Shown here: in pieces, positions 15 to 22,356 of the stretch
How positions within the stretch are numbered: the stretch's first letter is position 1
Layout of the letters: every line of letters begins with the position of its first letter
Source: a virus
DNA: 22,392 nt
IMG/VR virus record: IMGVR_UViG_3300037245_002208
Span: 1-22,392 of that record
Strand: one strand, 5' to 3'
Made by a program: the position numbers and the translations under genes
Notes under the pieces: generated by a model
What the model was told of the DNA's origin: nothing
Databases searched by the model: none
Seen by the model: only the letters and a program-made list of their open reading frames with translations

Positions 15-329
15 TCATCGATTTGTTTGAGACACTTTGTCAAATTGTTGCTGTAAAGCATTTATAAATTTTTGCATTCTACTTTTGGTTATAATCACAC
101 TTGAGACACATTCTGCATCAATTTCAGCAGGTGGTTCTCCTGATCCGAGATAAACTTCAGGCTTAAGCTCAAAAAACGAAACCCTGAATTCATCTTCTAT
201 AAACTGAACAGTCATATTGGAAGCAAAACGCGTAATTAGACTATCTGGTGTCTTGTATTTAATCTTCAAGGCTACTAATTCTTTTGTCTCATCCGGGGTT
301 GTTTCTTTAATATCTTTTGCTTTAGCCAT
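15..329 (-). CDS. Small DUF3467-like protein, third gene of a toxin-antitoxin operon
   Basis: A 104-residue soluble protein if translation starts at the ATG at 329-327; a GTG at 338 would add three residues. The pattern is an N-terminal charged stretch, then beta-rich segments (FASNMTVQFIEDEFRVSFFE, about residues 36-55), then a C-terminal amphipathic helix with IITKSRMQKFINALQQQFDK. This order, with an 'EF.V.F' strand followed by 'II....M..F..ALQ', resembles the small DUF3467 family, whose function is unknown. It starts inside the last codons of the antitoxin gene (8-nt overlap), so it is almost certainly co-translated with the toxin-antitoxin pair. By position it could be a third component, for example a chaperone as in SecB-containing toxin-antitoxin-chaperone operons, but it is shorter than those SecB-like proteins and I see no clear SecB motif. 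The family call is moderate; the role is inference. Confidence 0.6.
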   Translation of the reverse strand: MAKAKDIKETTPDETKELVALKIKYKTPDSLITRFASNMTVQFIEDEFRVSFFELKPEVYLGSGEPPAEIDAECVSSVIITKSRMQKFINALQQQFDKVSQTNR

Positions 330-810
330 TAGATCCACTCATCATTCTAATAGTTGAAGCACCAGTGGTAGAAGATAGATCCATCCTTACGGGTAGGGGT
401 GTCTTGGAAGGAATGTTTAGCTCGATTTCCATACCACTTATTTCAGCTATATTACGTACTAATTTTACTGATTCTATATCGGTATCTTCTCTCCTCTTAT
501 ATTGAGCGATTACATCTTCCACTGGTTCTATAGTAACCCTTAACCTTGCGCCTAGAGCTTCGGCAACACGGAATAATGTTGTAAAGCTCCATGACGAGTA
601 TTCAGCTTGTTCAACTCGAGAAATAGCAGACTGCTTCATACCTGATTTATTTGCAAGGTCACTTTGGCGCAGTTTTCTTTTTTCTCGCAATCCCCTTATA
701 CTCATTGCGATAATATCTTGTACCTGACCTCTAAAAAATCGGTTCCTGAAACCTTCATCTTTTTCGAGTTTTTCTGCAATACTTAATTTAATGGGTGTAA
801 TTAAGGGCAT
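322..810 (-). CDS. XRE-family helix-turn-helix antitoxin (HigA-like)
   Basis: A 162-residue DNA-binding protein. A Cro/cI-type helix-turn-helix covers about residues 33-92, with the typical run LREKRKLRQSDLANKSGMKQ, then SAISRVEQ and TLFRVAEALGARLRV. In HigB/Gp49-type modules such a protein neutralises the toxin and represses the operon. It has a strong Shine-Dalgarno sequence (GAGGAGG, nine bases before the ATG) inside the 3' end of the toxin gene and overlaps that gene by 23 bases, the toxin-first order usual for higBA. The ~70 residues after the HTH (to MMSGSNG) are longer than in minimal antitoxins and have no motif I recognise; they could contact the toxin or the third gene product. Likely autoregulated through the palindromes at 1160-1209. 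Confidence 0.85.
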   Translation of the reverse strand: MPLITPIKLSIAEKLEKDEGFRNRFFRGQVQDIIAMSIRGLREKRKLRQSDLANKSGMKQSAISRVEQAEYSSWSFTTLFRVAEALGARLRVTIEPVEDVIAQYKRREDTDIESVKLVRNIAEISGMEIELNIPSKTPLPVRMDLSSTTGASTIRMMSGSNG

Positions 811-1150
811 CTAATATATCCTCCTCATTTTTTATTTTATCTCTTGTTTTCTTAGCTTGTGTAATACGCTTTGCTTGAAATTTTTTATCCTTCTTATAAA
901 AAGCATCAACAAATATTATTTTTTCACCTTTCCCAAAATAAAATAGAAGCCTTGCCTGATTATTTCTTGCTACTGCCAATAGTTCAAACAGACCATAGCC
1001 TAAAGGCGCAGTAACCGGTCGCTCGCAATTATTTCCATTTTCAAGTAATAAGTCTAGTCTGCTCATGAGCTTTTCTTTCATTGCTTCATCACACTGATCG
1101 AGAAACAAAGATACTACGTTACGATACTCCCAAAATGTCCAAGCGCACAT
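788..1150 (-). CDS. HigB/Gp49-like (RelE superfamily) toxin
   Basis: A 120-residue basic protein of the phage-derived Gp49-like/HigB family, ribosome-dependent mRNA interferases of the RelE fold. Visible landmarks are the N-terminal strand WTFWEYRN, the helix DEAMKEKLMSRLDLLLENG, the strand pair PLGYGLFELLAVARNNQARL, LFYFGKGEKIIFVDAFYKK with the family's 'F.KK' near residue 86, and a lysine-rich C-terminal helix. It is the first gene of the operon and overlaps the antitoxin. The ATG at 1150 is the only plausible start because a stop codon lies two codons upstream; no Shine-Dalgarno sequence precedes it, so translation may be weak or leaderless. Family assignment is firm; mRNA cleavage is inferred from family membership. 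Confidence 0.85.
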   Translation of the reverse strand: MCAWTFWEYRNVVSLFLDQCDEAMKEKLMSRLDLLLENGNNCERPVTAPLGYGLFELLAVARNNQARLLFYFGKGEKIIFVDAFYKKDKKFQAKRITQAKKTRDKIKNEEDILDALNYTH

Positions 1151-1273: not shown

Positions 1274-1342
1274 TAAAAATAAATGAGAAGGGAATTGATT
1301 TCTTGCTTGACTTTCCTTAAGCGGTCAAGCCTAGCGGTCATT

Positions 1343-2170
1343 ATGAACAGGAGGTCAATTAAGGAAAAAGCTCGAATTCTCCATTGTCTGGTAGAGGGAA
1401 ACAGCATCCAGGCAACATCCAGAATGACAGGAGCCTCTAAAAGCACGGTTGCAAAGCTCCTTGTGGATGTGGGACAAGCGTGTGGAGAGTACCAGAATGA
1501 AGCTCTTAGAAACCTTACCTATGAGCGTATTCAGGTAGGTGAAATCTGCTCTTTTTGCTACTCAAAAGAAAAGAATCTGCCTGAGGAGAAAAAGGGCATA
1601 TTGGGCTATGGGGATGTATGGACGTGGACGGCTATTTGCGCCGATACAAAACTTGTTCCTTCATGGCTCATTGGTGGCAGGGATGCTGATTACGCTAATA
1701 TCTTCATGCATGATCTAGCTTCTAGGTTGGCTAATAAAATTCAGCTAACCTCCGATGGGCATGGAGCATACCTTCAAGCCGTTGAAAATGCCTTTGGGGA
1801 GAATATTGACTACGCCCAACTTATAAAAATGTACGGAGCGTCACCTGAACAGCCTGAAAAACGATATAGCTCCGCTGGTATTATTGGAGCTAGAAAAGAA
1901 GCTGTAACCGGTACACCTGATAAAAGGGAAATTTCGACAAGCTATGTGGAAAGAAACAATCTCACTATGAGAATGAGTATGCGCCGATTCACGAGACTAA
2001 CAAATGGATTCTCGAAAAAGATTGAAAATCTTGAACACGCCGTTGCTCTACACTTTATGCATTACAATTTTGTCCGAATTCATAAGAGTCTTAGAGAGAC
2101 CCCTGCAATGGCGGCAGGAGTGACAGATACGCTAATGACTATAGAAGATATTGCGAGGTTGGCAGAATGA
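1343..2170 (+). CDS. IS1-like DDE transposase, first catalytic Asp replaced
   Basis: A 275-residue transposase from the ATG at 1343 (MNRRSIKEKARIL). Another in-frame ATG at 1283 would add 20 residues that do not look like the family, whose members start 'MN.L...R..I...LVEGNSI'. An N-terminal HTH (SIQATSRMTGASKSTVAKLL) is followed by the catalytic core. The family signature near residue 65 is normally 'V..DEIWSF.Y.K.KN', but here it reads IQVGEICSFCYSKEKN, so the first catalytic Asp is Gly and the following Trp is Cys; each is one base change from the expected codon. The second acidic residue (TSDGHGAY) and the Glu region (SYVERNNLTMRMSMRRFTRL) are intact. No matching terminal inverted repeats or target-site duplication were found. 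It may be an inactive remnant or a domesticated DNA-binding protein. Confidence 0.85.
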   Translation: MNRRSIKEKARILHCLVEGNSIQATSRMTGASKSTVAKLLVDVGQACGEYQNEALRNLTYERIQVGEICSFCYSKEKNLPEEKKGILGYGDVWTWTAICADTKLVPSWLIGGRDADYANIFMHDLASRLANKIQLTSDGHGAYLQAVENAFGENIDYAQLIKMYGASPEQPEKRYSSAGIIGARKEAVTGTPDKREISTSYVERNNLTMRMSMRRFTRLTNGFSKKIENLEHAVALHFMHYNFVRIHKSLRETPAMAAGVTDTLMTIEDIARLAE

Positions 2171-9992: not shown

Positions 9993-10568
9993 ATGACATG
10001 TATAGTAGCGTGCAAGGATAGTAATGGTGACATCTGGATGGGGGGGGATAGTGCTGGCTCTCAAGGCACTACCCTCACCACGCTCAGAGAACCTAAAGTA
10101 TTTACTGTAAAAAATAAATTTATAATCGGGGGTACTGGTCATCCAAGAGCAAGTCAACTCCTTAAGTACAGATTGAAGGCTCCGACTCAGAAGCCCGGTC
10201 AGGCTGACCACGAATACATGTGTACTGATTTTGTAGACGCAATCAGAAAGTGCTTGTTTGAGGGTGGGTACGCTACAAAAAGCAACGAAGCAGAAGAAGG
10301 TGGTAACTTTTTAGTTGGGTACAAAAGTAATATATATGAGGTCGAGAAAAACTTTCAAATCATTCAGCGAGTCCATGACTATGATGCGATTGGTTGCGGT
10401 GAGTCCTTCGCATTAGGGGCGATAAGTGCCGTGATGGATGTCGGTACATGCGACTATGACTCGGAACAAATAGTGGAGGCTGGATTAGATGCGGCAAAAA
10501 CTTTCTCACCCCAAGTCCAAGAGCCATTCCATATCATTAAGCTAAAGGCAGGCAAGAGAAAGGGATAA
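9993..10568 (+). CDS. HslV/proteasome beta-like Ntn-hydrolase of phage
   Basis: A 191-residue protein with the layout of HslV and proteasome beta subunits, peptidases whose N-terminal Thr becomes the nucleophile after Met removal. Thr2 opens the strand TCIVACKD, followed by GDIWMGGDSAGS with Asp19, REPKVFTV with Lys35 in the place of the catalytic Lys, FIIGGTGHPRAS, and a C-terminal half with YDAIGCGESFALGAISAVMD and SEQIVEAGLDAAK, the usual glycine loop and two-helix pattern. No ATPase partner (HslU/ClpX type) is encoded nearby. It sits directly before the MuF-like gene, three bases apart, so a role in head maturation or in turnover of host proteins is possible. Family call is good; activity is inferred. 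Confidence 0.75.
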   Translation: MTCIVACKDSNGDIWMGGDSAGSQGTTLTTLREPKVFTVKNKFIIGGTGHPRASQLLKYRLKAPTQKPGQADHEYMCTDFVDAIRKCLFEGGYATKSNEAEEGGNFLVGYKSNIYEVEKNFQIIQRVHDYDAIGCGESFALGAISAVMDVGTCDYDSEQIVEAGLDAAKTFSPQVQEPFHIIKLKAGKRKG

Positions 10569-14690: not shown

Positions 14691-15461
14691 ATGGTATGGT
14701 CTGGTAATGCTGGGATTGATTGGTATAGCGCAGTATCGCTAGGGCTTGTTCCCGGCATGTCAATTGTTCATAAATATGGTCGAAATGGGGCTGTTCCTAA
14801 TGGTTCTTGGGAGGCAATAACTCCTTCGGGGGCTATTAACTTCCTGCAAGCCGCAACACCAGTAAGAATAAAGGCTGGTGGAAATGCCGCTGATACAGCC
14901 GCTGGGGCAGGAGCGCGAAAAATCACAGTCGAGGGGCTTGACAGTAATTTAGCCCTAGCGACAGAGGAGATCGTAACGGCTGGCGCAAGTGCAAGTTCTG
15001 TTACAGCCATATCATTTTGGCGTATATTCAGGGCTTATGTAAGCGATGATAGCACAGGTGCCTATGGAGGTTCGAATACAGGCGCAATCACTGTTGAAAA
15101 TGGAGCAGGGGGAACCGATTTAATACAAATAGGATCGGGTGAAGGGCAAAGTCAATTCGGTAGCTATTCAATACCTGTGGGCAAAACGGGCTATGTTATA
15201 GGTGGCGATGCAACCGTGAATGGGGTGAAGGCGGCAAGTGTTAGAGGTTTTGTCAGGGCGAACCTGAATAAGGTCACTACTCCTTTTTCACCTAAGAAAT
15301 TAAAAATACAGAGTGACGGTATCTTAGGCCAATCTGTTTTAATCTCTAAATCGGCGAGAATAATTCTCCCCCAGCTTTCTGATATATGGTTTGAGGCGAA
15401 TGGTGGCGGAGCGGCTACAGAGGCAAGCGTTGATTTTGAGATTCTTTTGGTGGACAACTGA
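14691..15461 (+). CDS. Virion structural protein, first of a tandem paralogous pair
   Basis: A 256-residue protein with AAAGGG nine bases before the ATG. It shares with the next gene the opening MVW.GN.G.D, GHSIVHK-like (here GMSIVHKYG), AADTAAGAGARKITVEGLDS, the motif GEGQSQFGSYSIPVGKTGY and the C-terminus FEILLVDN. The content is Gly/Ala/Thr-rich and mostly beta. The signature 'G.GQSQ...Y.IP.GKT.Y' occurs in uncharacterised structural proteins of marine and environmental phages, as far as I can recall. Role in the virion (head surface or neck) is inferred from position. Confidence 0.7.
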   Translation: MVWSGNAGIDWYSAVSLGLVPGMSIVHKYGRNGAVPNGSWEAITPSGAINFLQAATPVRIKAGGNAADTAAGAGARKITVEGLDSNLALATEEIVTAGASASSVTAISFWRIFRAYVSDDSTGAYGGSNTGAITVENGAGGTDLIQIGSGEGQSQFGSYSIPVGKTGYVIGGDATVNGVKAASVRGFVRANLNKVTTPFSPKKLKIQSDGILGQSVLISKSARIILPQLSDIWFEANGGGAATEASVDFEILLVDN

Positions 15462-16214
15462 ATGGTTTGGCAGGGGAATCCAGGTTCAGACTATTACTTA
15501 GAGTTGGCAAAGGGAAGGGTCGAGGGTCATTCCCTCCTTCATAAATTTTCTCATGCCGATGCTCTCGGAACAACACTTATAGATTTATGGTCTGCCAATA
15601 TAGCTTATCCGTGGCTTACAGCAGCAAGCATTTTGAAAGTGTCTAGTACGGATGCAACGGATACATCGGCTGGCGCAGGCGCAAGAACGGTAGAAATATT
15701 CGGTTTAGATTCTGATTATAAGGAGATAAACGAGACTGTCAACCTGAATGGTCAAACATCGGTAGATACCACTGAGGAGTATCTTCGCATTTACCGAGTT
15801 ATTGTAAGGTCTTCCGGTACGTTCGATTCTGCTAATGCAGGTGAAATCTGGGTAGGAACAGGAACAGTGACAGCAGGTGTTCCCGCTGTTAAGCTTTCTC
15901 ATGTAGAAGTAGGAAAAGGGCAATCTCAGATGTCTCAATATACTATACCTGCGGGCAAAACAGCATATCTTGTTACTTCTGTGATTACAACCAATGGTGA
16001 TAAAGAAGTAGAATTTCAGTATTATGTGAGACCGCTTAATGAAGTATTCCAAGTAAAATTCGAAAATCATCTTTATAGAGATAGCCTGCCTGCAAATTAC
16101 AAAGTACCGCATCTGATGATTGCAGAAAAATCAGATATTACTATCAAGGCAAAAGTGGGTTCTGGCACAGGCGCAGTCTCGTATGAATACGATCTTGTTT
16201 TGGTAGATAATTAA
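15462..16214 (+). CDS. Virion structural protein, second of a tandem paralogous pair
   Basis: A 250-residue protein that begins directly after the stop of its paralogue, with GGTGG inside the end of that gene. Shared landmarks are MVWQGNPGSDYY, EGHSLLHKFSH, TDTSAGAGARTVEIFGLDSD, GKGQSQMSQYTIPAGKTAYL and the final YDLVLVDN. The conserved blocks lie in the same order and spacing as in the first copy, but the sequences between them differ, so the duplication is old. The two may form a hetero-oligomer or act at different virion positions. Confidence 0.7.
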   Translation: MVWQGNPGSDYYLELAKGRVEGHSLLHKFSHADALGTTLIDLWSANIAYPWLTAASILKVSSTDATDTSAGAGARTVEIFGLDSDYKEINETVNLNGQTSVDTTEEYLRIYRVIVRSSGTFDSANAGEIWVGTGTVTAGVPAVKLSHVEVGKGQSQMSQYTIPAGKTAYLVTSVITTNGDKEVEFQYYVRPLNEVFQVKFENHLYRDSLPANYKVPHLMIAEKSDITIKAKVGSGTGAVSYEYDLVLVDN

Positions 16215-17843: not shown

Positions 17844-18254
17844 GTGGCGACAAAGGAATTATTCGGGGCCATTCTTACGCATTTCAACGTAACGAATGAT
17901 TTTAATACGGCCGTAAGCGGTCAACTTGCCGCCTATAAGGCGGAGAACGCTCCCTCGTTCCCACACGCTGTCTTCACACTGATTAGCGATGATCCCGAAT
18001 ATACATTCACTGGCAATAATCTTGAAGTGGCATTAATGCAATTCAGCATTTATGACAACAAGGCGGCTATTGGTACGGTACAAGACGCACAGCAGAAGTT
18101 GTGGGATTTATTCGATGATGCGGTAATAACGATGGCAGGATTTACGCAACTGGCATTTATTCGAGGGCAAACACTCCTCAAGCGAGGCGAAGTAGATCGA
18201 CCGGAAATATGGGCAAGTCACACAGTATACGAAATAACGTTTCAAAAAACATAG
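17844..18254 (+). CDS. Tail completion protein (DUF3168 family)
   Basis: A 136-residue protein starting at GTG 17844, directly after the previous stop, with GGGGGTAGGG upstream. The pattern LFGAILTHFNVTNDFNTAVS, PHAVFTLISDDPEYTFTGN and a middle LMQFSIYD.KAAIGTVQDAQ followed by TVYEITFQK at the end matches DUF3168/lambda gpU-like tail terminators, which cap the tail tube and fit it to the head. Confidence 0.85.
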   Translation: MATKELFGAILTHFNVTNDFNTAVSGQLAAYKAENAPSFPHAVFTLISDDPEYTFTGNNLEVALMQFSIYDNKAAIGTVQDAQQKLWDLFDDAVITMAGFTQLAFIRGQTLLKRGEVDRPEIWASHTVYEITFQKT

Positions 18255-18263
18255 GAGGTAACA

Positions 18264-18632
18264 ATGGCTAAAATTCATGGTAAGGGCGGGGACGTAGATA
18301 CAGGATCGAGTGTATCGGGTATCAACGCATGGACACTCTCGCACGATGGTGAGGCAGCGGAGACAACGGATTTCGCATCCGCTGGGACAAAAGAGTACAT
18401 CCCCGGATTAACGGGTTGGGCGGGAACATTCGCGGGGTTTAAAGACGGTCCGCCGATAGCACCTAATAGCATTGTATCGTTAAGCCTCGAAGAGGTAGCG
18501 GGTAGTGCGACTGAAAAATACACTGGCTCTGCCATTGTCACCAACCATTCGGTAGATACTAATACTGCTGGGGTAGTGACATATACCTATACATTCGTAG
18601 GAACGGGCTTGCTTACACCGGCATCGGCGTAA
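18264..18632 (+). CDS. Major tail (tube) protein, short paralogue
   Basis: A 122-residue protein with AGGAGG six bases before the ATG. It starts MAKIHGKGGDV, continues GINAWTLSHDGEAAETTDFA, then GTKEYIPGLTGWAGTFAGF and ends TYTYTFVGTGLLTPA. The order of strands, the 'AWTL..DGEAAETTDF' motif and the position between the tail terminator and the chaperones fit a siphovirus tail tube subunit. Its C-terminal 104 residues are closely related to those of the next gene: 41 of 46 residues from GINAWTLS to DGPP are identical. It is probably the basic tube subunit. Confidence 0.8.
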   Translation: MAKIHGKGGDVDTGSSVSGINAWTLSHDGEAAETTDFASAGTKEYIPGLTGWAGTFAGFKDGPPIAPNSIVSLSLEEVAGSATEKYTGSAIVTNHSVDTNTAGVVTYTYTFVGTGLLTPASA

Positions 18633-18647
18633 TAAGGAGATAAGAGT

Positions 18648-19454
18648 ATGGCTAAAATTCATGGTAAGGGCGGAGATGTTTACGGTATCGATGTAGTCGT
18701 TGATGACTGCGAAGACGCATGGGATGAAGGTGGTGCGGATGCAGGATCTACCCCAAGCACTACGGCGGGTAAAGTAGGGACAAATGCGGCACGGGCTACG
18801 ACAGTAGCTGTAGGAGCGGTTGCCACGTTAATGAATGAGGCTGTGGCGAGTACCGACTACTCGGCTTATGGAGCGGCGGTATTCTGGGCGAGATCGAGTC
18901 TGGCGAGTCTTATTGCGGGTGACCTGCAATTGCGAGTTGACGATACAGCGCAGACAGTCAGCCCGCTAGAAACGCTTGATCTTGGGGCTATGGCTACAGC
19001 AGATACATGGTACAGGCATCTAAGCAAGTTTGTCACCCCCGCTAATCTAACGGCGGTAATAAGTCTTGGGCTAGGGCAAGTAAACGATCTGGGTGATGGC
19101 ACGTTCGATATAGACGATGTGAGGTTCGTCAAGCGGATAGCCGGTATAAATGCTTGGACGTTGAGCTATGACGGTGAGGCGGCCGAGGTAACTGACTTTG
19201 CCTCTGACGGTACGAAAGAATATATCCCTGGCGCAAGTGGTTGGGCGGGAACGTTTGCAGGATTCAAAGATGGTCCGCCTCTCGACATCAATGCCGAGGT
19301 TGTAATGGCGTTCCAAGAAGGTCCGGCTGTAGGGCAAAGCTATCTAGGGAATGTTATTATCACAAACCAATCGACGGACGTGAACAGTGCGGGTGTTATA
19401 ACGTATTCGTATACCTTTACCGGCACTGGCGACCTACAAATACCAACGGCTTAA
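18648..19454 (+). CDS. Tail tube paralogue with inserted beta-sandwich domain
   Basis: A 268-residue protein with AAGGAG before the ATG. Its first 11 residues (MAKIHGKGGDV) and its last 103 (from GINAWTLSYDGEAAEVTDFA) repeat the short tail tube protein. Between them are ~154 residues (about 12-165) that resemble carbohydrate-binding or galactose-binding-like beta-sandwiches: VVDDCEDAW, TTVAVGAVATLMNEAV, AAVFWARSS, LQLRVDDTAQ, TWYRHLSKFV and a closing FDIDDVRFV. The insert would project from the tube surface and could bind glycans at the host surface or decorate the tail. The duplicated tube domain implies a tube of two subunit types. Confidence 0.8.
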   Translation: MAKIHGKGGDVYGIDVVVDDCEDAWDEGGADAGSTPSTTAGKVGTNAARATTVAVGAVATLMNEAVASTDYSAYGAAVFWARSSLASLIAGDLQLRVDDTAQTVSPLETLDLGAMATADTWYRHLSKFVTPANLTAVISLGLGQVNDLGDGTFDIDDVRFVKRIAGINAWTLSYDGEAAEVTDFASDGTKEYIPGASGWAGTFAGFKDGPPLDINAEVVMAFQEGPAVGQSYLGNVIITNQSTDVNSAGVITYSYTFTGTGDLQIPTA

Positions 19455-19759
19455 TGAATGGCGATTGCGGGATATTTTACGATGGTGACCGTCAAGTGGG
19501 CGGTTGCTACAGTTGGGTTGTCGATACCAAGCTCGGCGTTCAACCGTCCGACAAGTGGAAAAACTTTAAGGTGCTTAGCCGGTCAATAAAAACTGAGCGA
19601 TGGTGGTTATTTGAGAATATTACAGCGTTTACGGTTAAGCTATACGAGATGAAAGGCGATGATCTTATATACGCTAATAGTGCGGATATAAAAAGCATCG
19701 TTGTCTCGCCATTTGAATTGGGCGAAGAACAGTCGCACGAATTGCTAATGAAATTTTAA
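19454..19759 (+). CDS. Hypothetical tail-region protein
   Basis: A 101-residue protein from ATG 19454 in a TAATG overlap with the previous stop. An in-frame ATG at 19241 would run through the tube gene and is rejected. It has a beta-rich pattern (GIFYDGDRQVGGCYSWVVDT, WWLFENITAFTVKLYEMKGD) with three Trp clusters and ends SHELLMKF. No Shine-Dalgarno sequence is seen, so it depends on coupling. Position between tube and chaperone genes suggests a minor tail function; no family is recognised. Confidence 0.65.
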   Translation: MNGDCGIFYDGDRQVGGCYSWVVDTKLGVQPSDKWKNFKVLSRSIKTERWWLFENITAFTVKLYEMKGDDLIYANSADIKSIVVSPFELGEEQSHELLMKF

Positions 19760-19773
19760 AGGAGGGAACTGAT

Positions 19774-20202
19774 ATGCCAATAGGCGAAATTGCTGGAGCC
19801 GAAACAGCTACGATTAAACTTGGCGATAAAGAGTACACTCTATCGGCGTTGACATTGAATGATTACGCTGCGGTAGAGAACGACATGAAAGAAGCTGAGC
19901 GCAAAGAACTGGTCAAGCTCACAGAGGGAATGGGATTTTCTCCTACTGAGAGGGTGGAGTATATCGGTGAAAAGCTTGCCAAGATAGACATTGTTACAGC
20001 CATGTCCTCGCAGTCCAAGAGAAGCATCGTCTTCCTTGCATACCATTCTATTAAGCGCAAACACCCTGATATTGAATATGACGATGTGGCAAGCCATATG
20101 ACCGTAGACAAGATGACAGAGATAGCAGGCAATGTATCGATCATCATGGGAACAAGCTCAAAAAAAGCGAAGGGGCGAGCGAAGAAAGCAACGAGGAAAT
20201 AA
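19774..20202 (+). CDS. Tail assembly chaperone, unshifted product
   Basis: A 142-residue protein with AAAGGAGGG before its ATG. It is helical after an N-terminal strand pair (TIKLGDKEYTLSALTLNDYA), with FLAYHSIKRKHPDIEYDDVA and a basic tail (KKAKGRAKKATRK). By position and size it is the G-type chaperone that wraps the tape measure protein during siphovirus tail assembly. A slippery run of seven A residues near its end gives a longer product by -1 frameshifting. Confidence 0.8.
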   Translation: MPIGEIAGAETATIKLGDKEYTLSALTLNDYAAVENDMKEAERKELVKLTEGMGFSPTERVEYIGEKLAKIDIVTAMSSQSKRSIVFLAYHSIKRKHPDIEYDDVASHMTVDKMTEIAGNVSIIMGTSSKKAKGRAKKATRK

Positions 20203-20430: not shown

Positions 20431-22356
20431 ATGCCAGAGAAATTAGCCGAAGCCTTTGTCGAACTCAAGCTCAAAGTAGATGAGCTAGAAAAGGGCTTAA
20501 AGAAGGCAGAGAAAAAAACCGAGAGTTCGGCGAAGAGGATGGCGAAATCTGCCGCAAAGATTGCTATTGCGTTCACGGCGGTAGCCGCAACAATTGGCGC
20601 AGTAATGGGCGCAAAGTTGGTCGAAATAGCTTCTGACTTTGAAGAGACAGAGGCTAAATTCAAAACTGTATTTGAAGGACTGGAAAGCAAGGCAAGATCT
20701 TTCTCCGATGAACTTGTAGCATCTTTTGGTGTATCCACGAGGGAGGCGCAGTTCTTCCTTTCGTCAATACAGGATTTGCTTGTGCCGATGGGCATTGCAT
20801 CCGATAAGGCTGCCGATCTATCGTTTGAAACTGTCAAACTTGCTACCGATCTCGGCTCCTTTAACAACTTACCAACAGCACAGGTATTGGCAGACATGCA
20901 ATCTGCGCTTGTCGGTAATTTTGAGACGATGAAAAAATATGGCGTTGTCTTGAACGAGACTGTTATAAAGCAGAGGGCGTTAGAGTTAGGGCTGGGTGAC
21001 GCAACAGGCAAGGTGAATGCCGCCGAAAAAGCTCAAATAGCCCTAATGCTCATAACTGAGAGTAGTGCGGCGGCTATCGGTGACTTCGCGAGAACATCGG
21101 ATGGGTTTGCTAATACGCTGAAAATTGTTAAAGCGAGGCTTGAAGATGCGGCAGGGGAAATGGGGAAAGCATTACTACCTGCGGCTAAGGAGTTGCTAAC
21201 GATCACATTAAAATTAATACCGGTAATGCTTGATTTCGCCAGGGCTGTCGGTCTGGACGGAAGAACCGCCACGCAGAAACTGATTAAAGAGATCGAGGTG
21301 CTGAAAAACCGACAGGGAGAATTGCTACAAAGCCTACGCTCATTATCGCCACAAACAGAGCTATACGCCGCCAGAGTTTTAGCCTTAAAGAATGTATCCA
21401 ATAAACTCGAAGCCGCACAGAAAAAAGTAAACGAGGAGAGTGGTAAGAACAAGGATATTGTCACCAAGAACATTGTTGCTATCGAAAAGTTGAACGTAAC
21501 CACTGATAAAGCAAAAAACTCTGGGAAGGAACTAGAAAAAACATTCACAGAAACATGGGACTCCTTCGCCGAGGGTGCAAAGTTTGCCGCCGACACCGCA
21601 AATGACCAGTTTACAGCAATGGCACAGGCTGGCAGAGACTTTACAAGCGGATTCAGAAGAGAGCTATCTAGCACTTTCGTGGATGCAATGAAAGGTGATC
21701 TCGGTACAGCCGAAGAGATTTTCAATAAATTTGGTGGGGTAGTTGTTGGGGTGATCGCTAATATGGCGGCTGAATGGGTAGTCGCTACGATTGCCACTAA
21801 TGGTTTCGCTGTAGCCGCACAACTGGCGTGGGCATCTACTCTCGGACCTATCGTATTGGTCATCGCCGCTATTGCGGTAGTGGCTAATAATTTCGATGCA
21901 ATAAAGGAAAAATTCGATGCCTTCTTTATTGCAATTGGTGACGTTATAGGCTTCCTTTTCCAGATGTTTAAAGATATCGCTATTAAAATGAAAGAGGTCT
22001 GGACGGGTGGCGAGAAGGGGACTGGTGAGACAGCTCTCGGAATAAATGTACCTTTTGTAAAATTCGCAGACGGTGGTATCGGCGAAGGCTTCGATCCCGG
22101 CATAATACGCCAGCCGACCTTCAATGCGGGTGGTAGCCAGCTAGCAGGTGAAGCCGGACCGGAAGCTATCGTACCGTTAAAGAATGGGGCAATCCCTGTA
22201 TCCATGAGTGGCGGTGGCGGTGCAAGTACTATTACTCTCGTGTTAAAAGCAGGCGATGATGTTATGGCGGCTATTGCCTCTGGTCTTGAAGCGATGTCAG
22301 AGGATGGCAGACTTAAGCTCGACAAAAGCGCGATTCACGACAGGGCGGCAATTTAG
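20431..22356 (+). CDS. Tail length tape measure protein
   Basis: A 641-residue protein from ATG 20431, one base after the chaperone fusion stop, with AGAGGAAA upstream. An N-terminal coiled coil (VELKLKVDELEKGLKKAEKK) is followed by an Ala/Gly-rich hydrophobic segment (~residues 45-65), the tape-measure core (TKFKTVFEGLE-like, DMQSALVGNFETMKKYGV), a long hydrophobic region (~436-488: VVVGVIANMAAEWVVATIAT, TLGPIVLVIAAIAVV) and the usual end GGSQLAGEAGPEAIVPLKNG. At about 0.15 nm per residue the tail would be near 95 nm. Such proteins fill the tail tube and are released ahead of the DNA. The gene is complete. Confidence 0.92.
   Translation: MPEKLAEAFVELKLKVDELEKGLKKAEKKTESSAKRMAKSAAKIAIAFTAVAATIGAVMGAKLVEIASDFEETEAKFKTVFEGLESKARSFSDELVASFGVSTREAQFFLSSIQDLLVPMGIASDKAADLSFETVKLATDLGSFNNLPTAQVLADMQSALVGNFETMKKYGVVLNETVIKQRALELGLGDATGKVNAAEKAQIALMLITESSAAAIGDFARTSDGFANTLKIVKARLEDAAGEMGKALLPAAKELLTITLKLIPVMLDFARAVGLDGRTATQKLIKEIEVLKNRQGELLQSLRSLSPQTELYAARVLALKNVSNKLEAAQKKVNEESGKNKDIVTKNIVAIEKLNVTTDKAKNSGKELEKTFTETWDSFAEGAKFAADTANDQFTAMAQAGRDFTSGFRRELSSTFVDAMKGDLGTAEEIFNKFGGVVVGVIANMAAEWVVATIATNGFAVAAQLAWASTLGPIVLVIAAIAVVANNFDAIKEKFDAFFIAIGDVIGFLFQMFKDIAIKMKEVWTGGEKGTGETALGINVPFVKFADGGIGEGFDPGIIRQPTFNAGGSQLAGEAGPEAIVPLKNGAIPVSMSGGGGASTITLVLKAGDDVMAAIASGLEAMSEDGRLKLDKSAIHDRAAI

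Follow-up and report, generated by a model that had tools for sequence, protein, structure and literature searches.

The original work on the mixed tail tube of phage SPP1 is said to be that of Auzat et al. from 2008. Plain (gp17.1) and domain-bearing (gp17.1*) tube subunits of this phage are reported to be present at 3:1 in one tail (PMC8718954). For TpeX, the domain-bearing tube subunit of the 936 phages, binding to the host cell has been demonstrated (PMC6669499), host-cell binding has likewise been shown for the Ig domains of the Douge tube (PMC13033339), and several actinophage clusters have been reported with two major tail proteins (PMC11080557). The field has yet to explain why extra domains occur on tail tubes (PMC8718954, PMC9022992).

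A related arrangement, encoded by two neighboring genes, is evident in the window, by which we mean the whole stretch of viral DNA that was analysed (22,392 nucleotides, IMG/VR record IMGVR_UViG_3300037245_002208). The following features define the pair, referred to here as A and B:

18264..18632, + strand: tube subunit A, a plain tail tube (major tail) protein of 122 aa, from PHROG, profile and AF2/Foldseek matches and from relatives
18648..19454, + strand: tube subunit B, a second tail tube protein with an inserted domain, 268 aa, from PHROG, AF2 and Foldseek
18264..18289 and 18648..18673, + strand: identical 26-nt starts of A and B, by direct comparison

Both genes lie on the + strand, separated by 15 bases, and each has its own start codon and Shine-Dalgarno site, making them two separate genes. 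The 26 identical bases begin exactly at the ATG and specify the common protein start MAKIHGKGGDV, after which A continues with seven residues (DTGSSVS) and B with 154 (residues 12-165) before the two rejoin at GINAWTLS, with 41 of the next 46 residues matching. This layout had been claimed in an earlier, sequence-only reading of the locus, and every one of its figures proved exact on re-check. From GINAW onward the cores are 63% identical, and the comparison of the two proteins (E 1.6e-42) places their likeness far above chance. The third codon positions of the 46-codon stretch, however, are identical in only 16 of 46 cases, and the duplication is therefore not recent. The identical start is an oddity in its own right, since codon identity elsewhere in the pair is about 0.30 (19 of 63 identical residues) and the chance of seven identical degenerate codons is then about 2e-4; in other A/B pairs, 7-24 of the first 30 bases are identical. 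We propose either a short conversion tract or a constraint at the ribosome-binding end. Folding at the gene start is slightly weaker for A than for B (p 0.025), and the Shine-Dalgarno sites show no significant difference in strength (p 0.17), so that the A:B ratio cannot be predicted from them.

Several lines of evidence indicate that A and B are tail tube proteins, as the sequence-only reading had supposed. Both A (E 3.8e-10) and residues 161-267 of B (E 1.1e-9) match phrog_1407, a major tail protein family, and a profile built from A and related sequences (A3) matches the solved monocin tail tube MttP (8qhs, E 1.3e-5) and the major tail protein of siphophage R4C (8gtb, E 9.9e-4). Structure prediction of both monomers, which that reading had put forward as a check, gave tube-like models: mean pLDDT is 75.9 for A and likewise 75.9 for B (pTM 0.73 for B), and Foldseek relates the two models to tail tubes with probabilities of 0.97-1.00, with E-values above 0.001 throughout. 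Within this range A reaches a probability of 1.00, and the core of B matches the GTA, monocin and R4C tubes at 0.99-1.00. The tube fold, including its long beta2-beta3 loop, is present in both predicted models. In cultivated relatives, the homologous gene at the same genomic position as A is annotated as tail tube or major tail protein, and the gene order of terminator, tube, chaperone and tape measure is as in the window, where the matches of the terminator and the chaperone are weak. The genes flanking the pair are:

17844..18254, + strand: probable tail terminator, upstream of A, from weak matches to the tail terminators phrog_347 and phrog_78
19454..19759, + strand: conserved gene of 101 aa that overlaps the end of B, from phmmer relatives
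19774..20202, + strand: probable tail assembly chaperone, from a weak match to tail protein phrog_2115 (E 0.012)
20431..22356, + strand: probable tape measure protein of 641 aa, from phrog_991 (E 2e-4) and phrog_167 (E 9e-4)

Roseobacter phage CRP-821 has a tail terminator at the equivalent position, and the placement of the chaperone candidate between tube and tape measure is also as in that phage. The phmmer search with the 101-aa protein gave 52 matches, redundant loci included, and in the majority of the 12 loci examined a relative directly follows B. The first part of the protein shows a weak likeness to the beta1-beta2 region of the tube (hhalign P 0.0046, probability 7.6%), and the gene may encode a shortened third tube-like protein. 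By the usual rule of about 1.5 Å per residue, the tail length expected from the tape measure is roughly 95 nm.

The window holds further features outside the pair. A second tandem pair of paralogs (14691-15461 and 15462-16214, 31% identity, E 1e-35, both phrog_8198 of unknown function) is located in the same structural cluster as A and B, between the capsid and head-tail adaptor genes. Between the portal and a Mu F-like gene, positions 9993-10568 encode a protein of 191 aa that begins with MTCIVACKDSNG and matches Pfam Proteasome below the threshold (E 0.005), a possible phage proteasome-like Ntn hydrolase. Gp49-like (HigB-type) and Cro/CI-HTH genes at 322-1150 (- strand) and 1283-2170 (+ strand) resemble a toxin-antitoxin pair and adjoin an IS1-like transposase.

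The region that distinguishes B from A comprises two features:

18297..18317, + strand: DTGSSVS of A, the beta1-beta2 hairpin turn and the slot that holds the domain in B, from the A model and the alignment
18681..19142, + strand: inserted domain, B residues 12-165, a predicted jelly-roll beta-sandwich that resembles CBMs in fold only, from AF2 and Foldseek

The model of A has strands at residues 9-12 and 17-27, and it is between these same two strands that the domain is placed in B; the insert is thus predicted to replace the turn of the first beta-hairpin, and the AF2 models bear out the earlier claim of a precise insertion. The insert is all-beta in the AF2 model, with strands in its region of B at residues 34-36, 47-49, 59-69, 76-83, 93-98, 108-111, 122-127, 137-144 and 151-166. 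Its Foldseek matches include CBM11, CBM16, CBM4-2 and CBM6 (probability 0.89-0.96, E 0.01-0.06) and also an agarase, the CBMs and the agarase together covering probabilities of 0.89-0.99 at E 0.01-0.06. At the sequence level, the insert matched no Pfam entry and no PDB sequence, and its 11 relatives likewise matched no CBM family in Pfam, so that the CBM label derives from the fold alone. Of the proposal that the insert is a CBM-like beta-sandwich, the predicted all-beta fold and the CBM jelly rolls among its matches stand. "CBM-like by fold" is a fair description of the predicted domain, and by analogy we infer that it would bind glycans. Its identity is 45-58% to the inserts of other tube B proteins and 36-58% to homologs in other phage proteins. 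The same domain occurs in two further kinds of phage protein, of 290 aa (L109 4698-5567) and 259 aa (L113, L115, L116 and L117, 4818-5594), indicating that the domain moves between proteins.

The sequence-only reading had suggested looking for the same pair in other phages. Pooling searches with the insert and with the plain tube as query yielded 83 distinct viral contigs with the A/B tube family, some of them near-copies, such that the counts refer to contigs and not to species. The plain-tube search, in which the domain was not part of the query, supplied most of these and gave the count that is independent of the insert. A plain gene is followed by a tube gene with the same domain in 61/83 contigs, by one with a different domain in that position in 9/83 (L008, L043, L089, L166, L190, L191, L192, L194 and L196) and by an undecorated B in 4/83 (L132, L133, L142 and L162). 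Only 2/83, both of one phage type (L009 and L010), have a single tube gene despite room for a second, 1/83 (L195) has three tube copies with C-terminal extensions, and 6/83 are cut. With the insert alone as query against viral contigs, 13 tube genes carried the same domain in the same place, and all 13 directly follow a plain tube gene (two are cut by the contig end, and in one the genes are about 660 bases apart). The pair of plain and decorated tube genes is thus kept across dozens of related uncultivated phages, and this suggests a tail of mixed bricks with binding domains displayed along its length. Searching 50,697 phage records with tblastn gave no match to A, B or the insert of the window; with A of the relative L106 as query, eight records were retrieved from the same set, all from cultivated or named phages. 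A related-locus search with A alone as query found nothing, alignments and the insert being required, and one candidate relative (L003) was rejected as spurious, since it rested on a short FDIDD-like match inside an unrelated gene cluster.

Some of these loci show additional variation. In the B tube gene of L196 (3506-4630), a CBM_4_9-like stretch (E 1.2e-4, below the cut-off) is nested inside the other type of insert; this domain differs from that of the window and is the only approach to CBM_4_9 that was found. Three tandem tube genes are present both in L195 (3974-6515), where two have long Ser/Thr-rich C-terminal extensions, and in L052 (8290-11775), where the first is longer by about 590 residues at its C-terminus.

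Evidence on whether the two proteins share a tube comes from a loop that is common to both:

18345..18419, + strand: long beta2-beta3 loop of A, residues 28-52, the presumed ring-stacking loop, from AF2, within-phage matching and homology
19170..19244, + strand: beta2-beta3 loop of B, residues 175-199, 84% identical to the loop of A

The model of A has no strand and low pLDDT between residues 27 and 53. We compared this loop and other regions in 49 non-redundant A/B pairs. At residues 28-52, A and B of one phage are 73% identical, as against 46% for A-A and 42% for B-B comparisons between phages; outside the loop the within-phage excess is 10-15 points or absent, and in 45/49 phages the loop shows a greater excess than the remaining core, although these phages are related and the permutation counts should not be interpreted as independent probabilities. 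Residues 70-84 behave in the opposite manner, as B is closest to the B of another phage in 49/49 pairs and A to another A in 46/49, and by keeping A and B distinct across phages they indicate that the pair did not arise separately in every phage. Within the window, identity is 84% between the loops and just 14% at residues 70-84. At matched residues, codon identity is barely raised (0.41 vs. 0.36), which favors matching at the protein level and disfavors recent gene conversion as the main cause of the likeness in core and loop; an older conversion with a decayed synonymous signal could account for the loop match.

In lambda and T5 the beta2-beta3 loop makes the contacts between rings, and in JBD30 the corresponding hinge loop makes contacts between discs (PMC8718954 and PMC11445458, respectively). 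Given this role of the loop together with its within-phage match, the most economical reading has A and B stack in one tube, a reading favored by the sequence comparisons, from which the two would be expected to co-assemble. The earlier suggestion of a tube with plain and domain-bearing subunits thus gains evidence in the matched loop.

We consider it probable that A and B both serve as subunits of one long non-contractile tube, on which B displays a beta-sandwich domain outward that is likely to hold glycans. A would be the plain block, and B an old paralog with the same core, a matched stacking loop and a beta-sandwich placed in the first beta-hairpin; rings of A and of B, or mixed rings, would stack on the tape measure. 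In lambda, the beta1-beta2 loop touches an exterior Ig domain (PMC8718954), and by this analogy the domain of B would point outward, so that the outer surface of the tail would carry copies of it. Through the displayed domains the virion would most likely attach weakly to host-surface glycans, ahead of receptor engagement by the tip. For a broader reading we lean only slightly towards acceptance: that two obligate, co-evolving tube subunits exist in widespread uncultivated phages, with the hairpin of B as a socket for swappable binding domains and the tube as a modular display rod. As part of this broader reading, the stacking loop would be kept alike within each phage and the beta4-beta5 region would keep A and B distinct, and the domains plugged in would comprise a CBM-like type, a second beta-rich type, a third type and a domain nested within a domain.

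The most serious alternative, which we regard as possible but doubtful, is that B forms one or a few special rings that carry the domain, at the head-proximal end or the tip of the tail, comparable to the neck passage structure or an "evolved Dit". The beta4-beta5 region of B (residues 70-99) is distinct from that of A in nearly every phage, as expected if its neighbor differs, and even a single ring of B would have to match A in its stacking loop; Dit and neck passage proteins with CBMs are also known (PMC6669499). Against this, the position of B after the plain gene and just before the chaperone and tape measure, the closeness of its core to that of A in the window and the similar strength of the two Shine-Dalgarno sites would all suit an abundant subunit, though none of these is decisive.

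Somewhat less likely is that the insert is structural, bracing neighboring subunits without glycan binding. Domain 2 of YSD1, which packs onto the next subunit (PMC8718954), would be a precedent, and the good conservation of the insert among tube B proteins is compatible with such a role. Yet the same slot holds unrelated domains elsewhere and none in the B of four contigs, and a tube whose slot may vary or stand empty needs no one particular brace; moreover, the occurrence of the insert-type domain in unrelated phage proteins (L109, L113-L117) is typical of mobile binding domains. That B acts outside the tail, for example as a soluble or capsid-bound binding protein on a tube scaffold, seems very improbable, as its core keeps the full predicted tube fold and its stacking loop is matched to A, which would be pointless outside a tube. 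A recent duplication with chance capture of a domain and no selected function can be set aside almost entirely, for although A and B of the window group as sisters in the core tree (100/99) and share their 26-nt start, it is mainly the first part of the core that produces this grouping, the two are saturated at third codon positions, the pair and its insert recur across dozens of diverged phages, and A/B identity at residues 70-84 is kept throughout.

If A and B do form one tube, as we think probable, the encoding of plain and decorated subunits by separate genes means that their ratio, their placement and the need for each could be tested by deleting single genes. Within-phage matching of the loop provides sequence-based evidence for two paralogs in one tube and is applicable to other phages with several tube genes, and the hairpin socket marks where natural tubes tolerate foreign domains.

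Among the known systems, a tandem arrangement of tube paralogs is also found in Microbacterium phage DizzyRudy (cluster EL), whose gp17, gp19 and gp20 all belong to phrog_2645 and include one protein with a large extra region; it differs in that the tube family is another one, the extra region of about 360 residues is C-terminal, and the description is by annotation only. The DizzyRudy paralogs lie at L199 2783-6803, and this cultivated isolate is suited to testing the idea of a mixed tube. A homologous plain tube gene occupies the corresponding genomic position in Roseobacter phages CRP-811 and CRP-821, Pelagibacter phages HTVC112P and HTVC026P, and phage DSL-LC06, but one tube-family gene was found per record, with no domain-bearing partner annotated alongside. 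"Evolved" Dit proteins with CBM insertions resemble B in carrying a binding domain within a ring-forming tail protein (PMC6669499); Dit, however, is an adaptor at the tip, whereas B is a paralog of the main tube encoded upstream of the tape measure.

Closer in architecture are domain 2 of YSD1 and the decoration domain of JBD30, both of them beta-sandwiches inside a siphophage tube protein (PMC8718954, PMC11445458). In the relevant passages, which mention no plain partner gene, the insertion lies between alpha1 and beta4 in YSD1 and at residues 88-175 in JBD30, as opposed to the first hairpin in the window. The 936 lactococcal MTP-TpeX system shares with the present one that a fraction of the major tail proteins carries a carbohydrate-binding domain for host binding, but TpeX is a frameshift product with a C-terminal extension of another domain family (PMC6669499). 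A two-gene tube of plain and domain-bearing subunits was not described in the literature searched, whose coverage excluded most subscription papers, nor did we find described a conserved two-gene tube with a swappable first-hairpin domain and a matched stacking loop; mixed tubes as such are known from SPP1. The two systems are alike in having a plain subunit and one that shares its core and bears an extra beta-sandwich (PMC8718954). They differ in that SPP1 uses one gene, a frameshift and a C-terminal FN3 domain, whereas the window has two genes and places the domain inside the first beta-hairpin.
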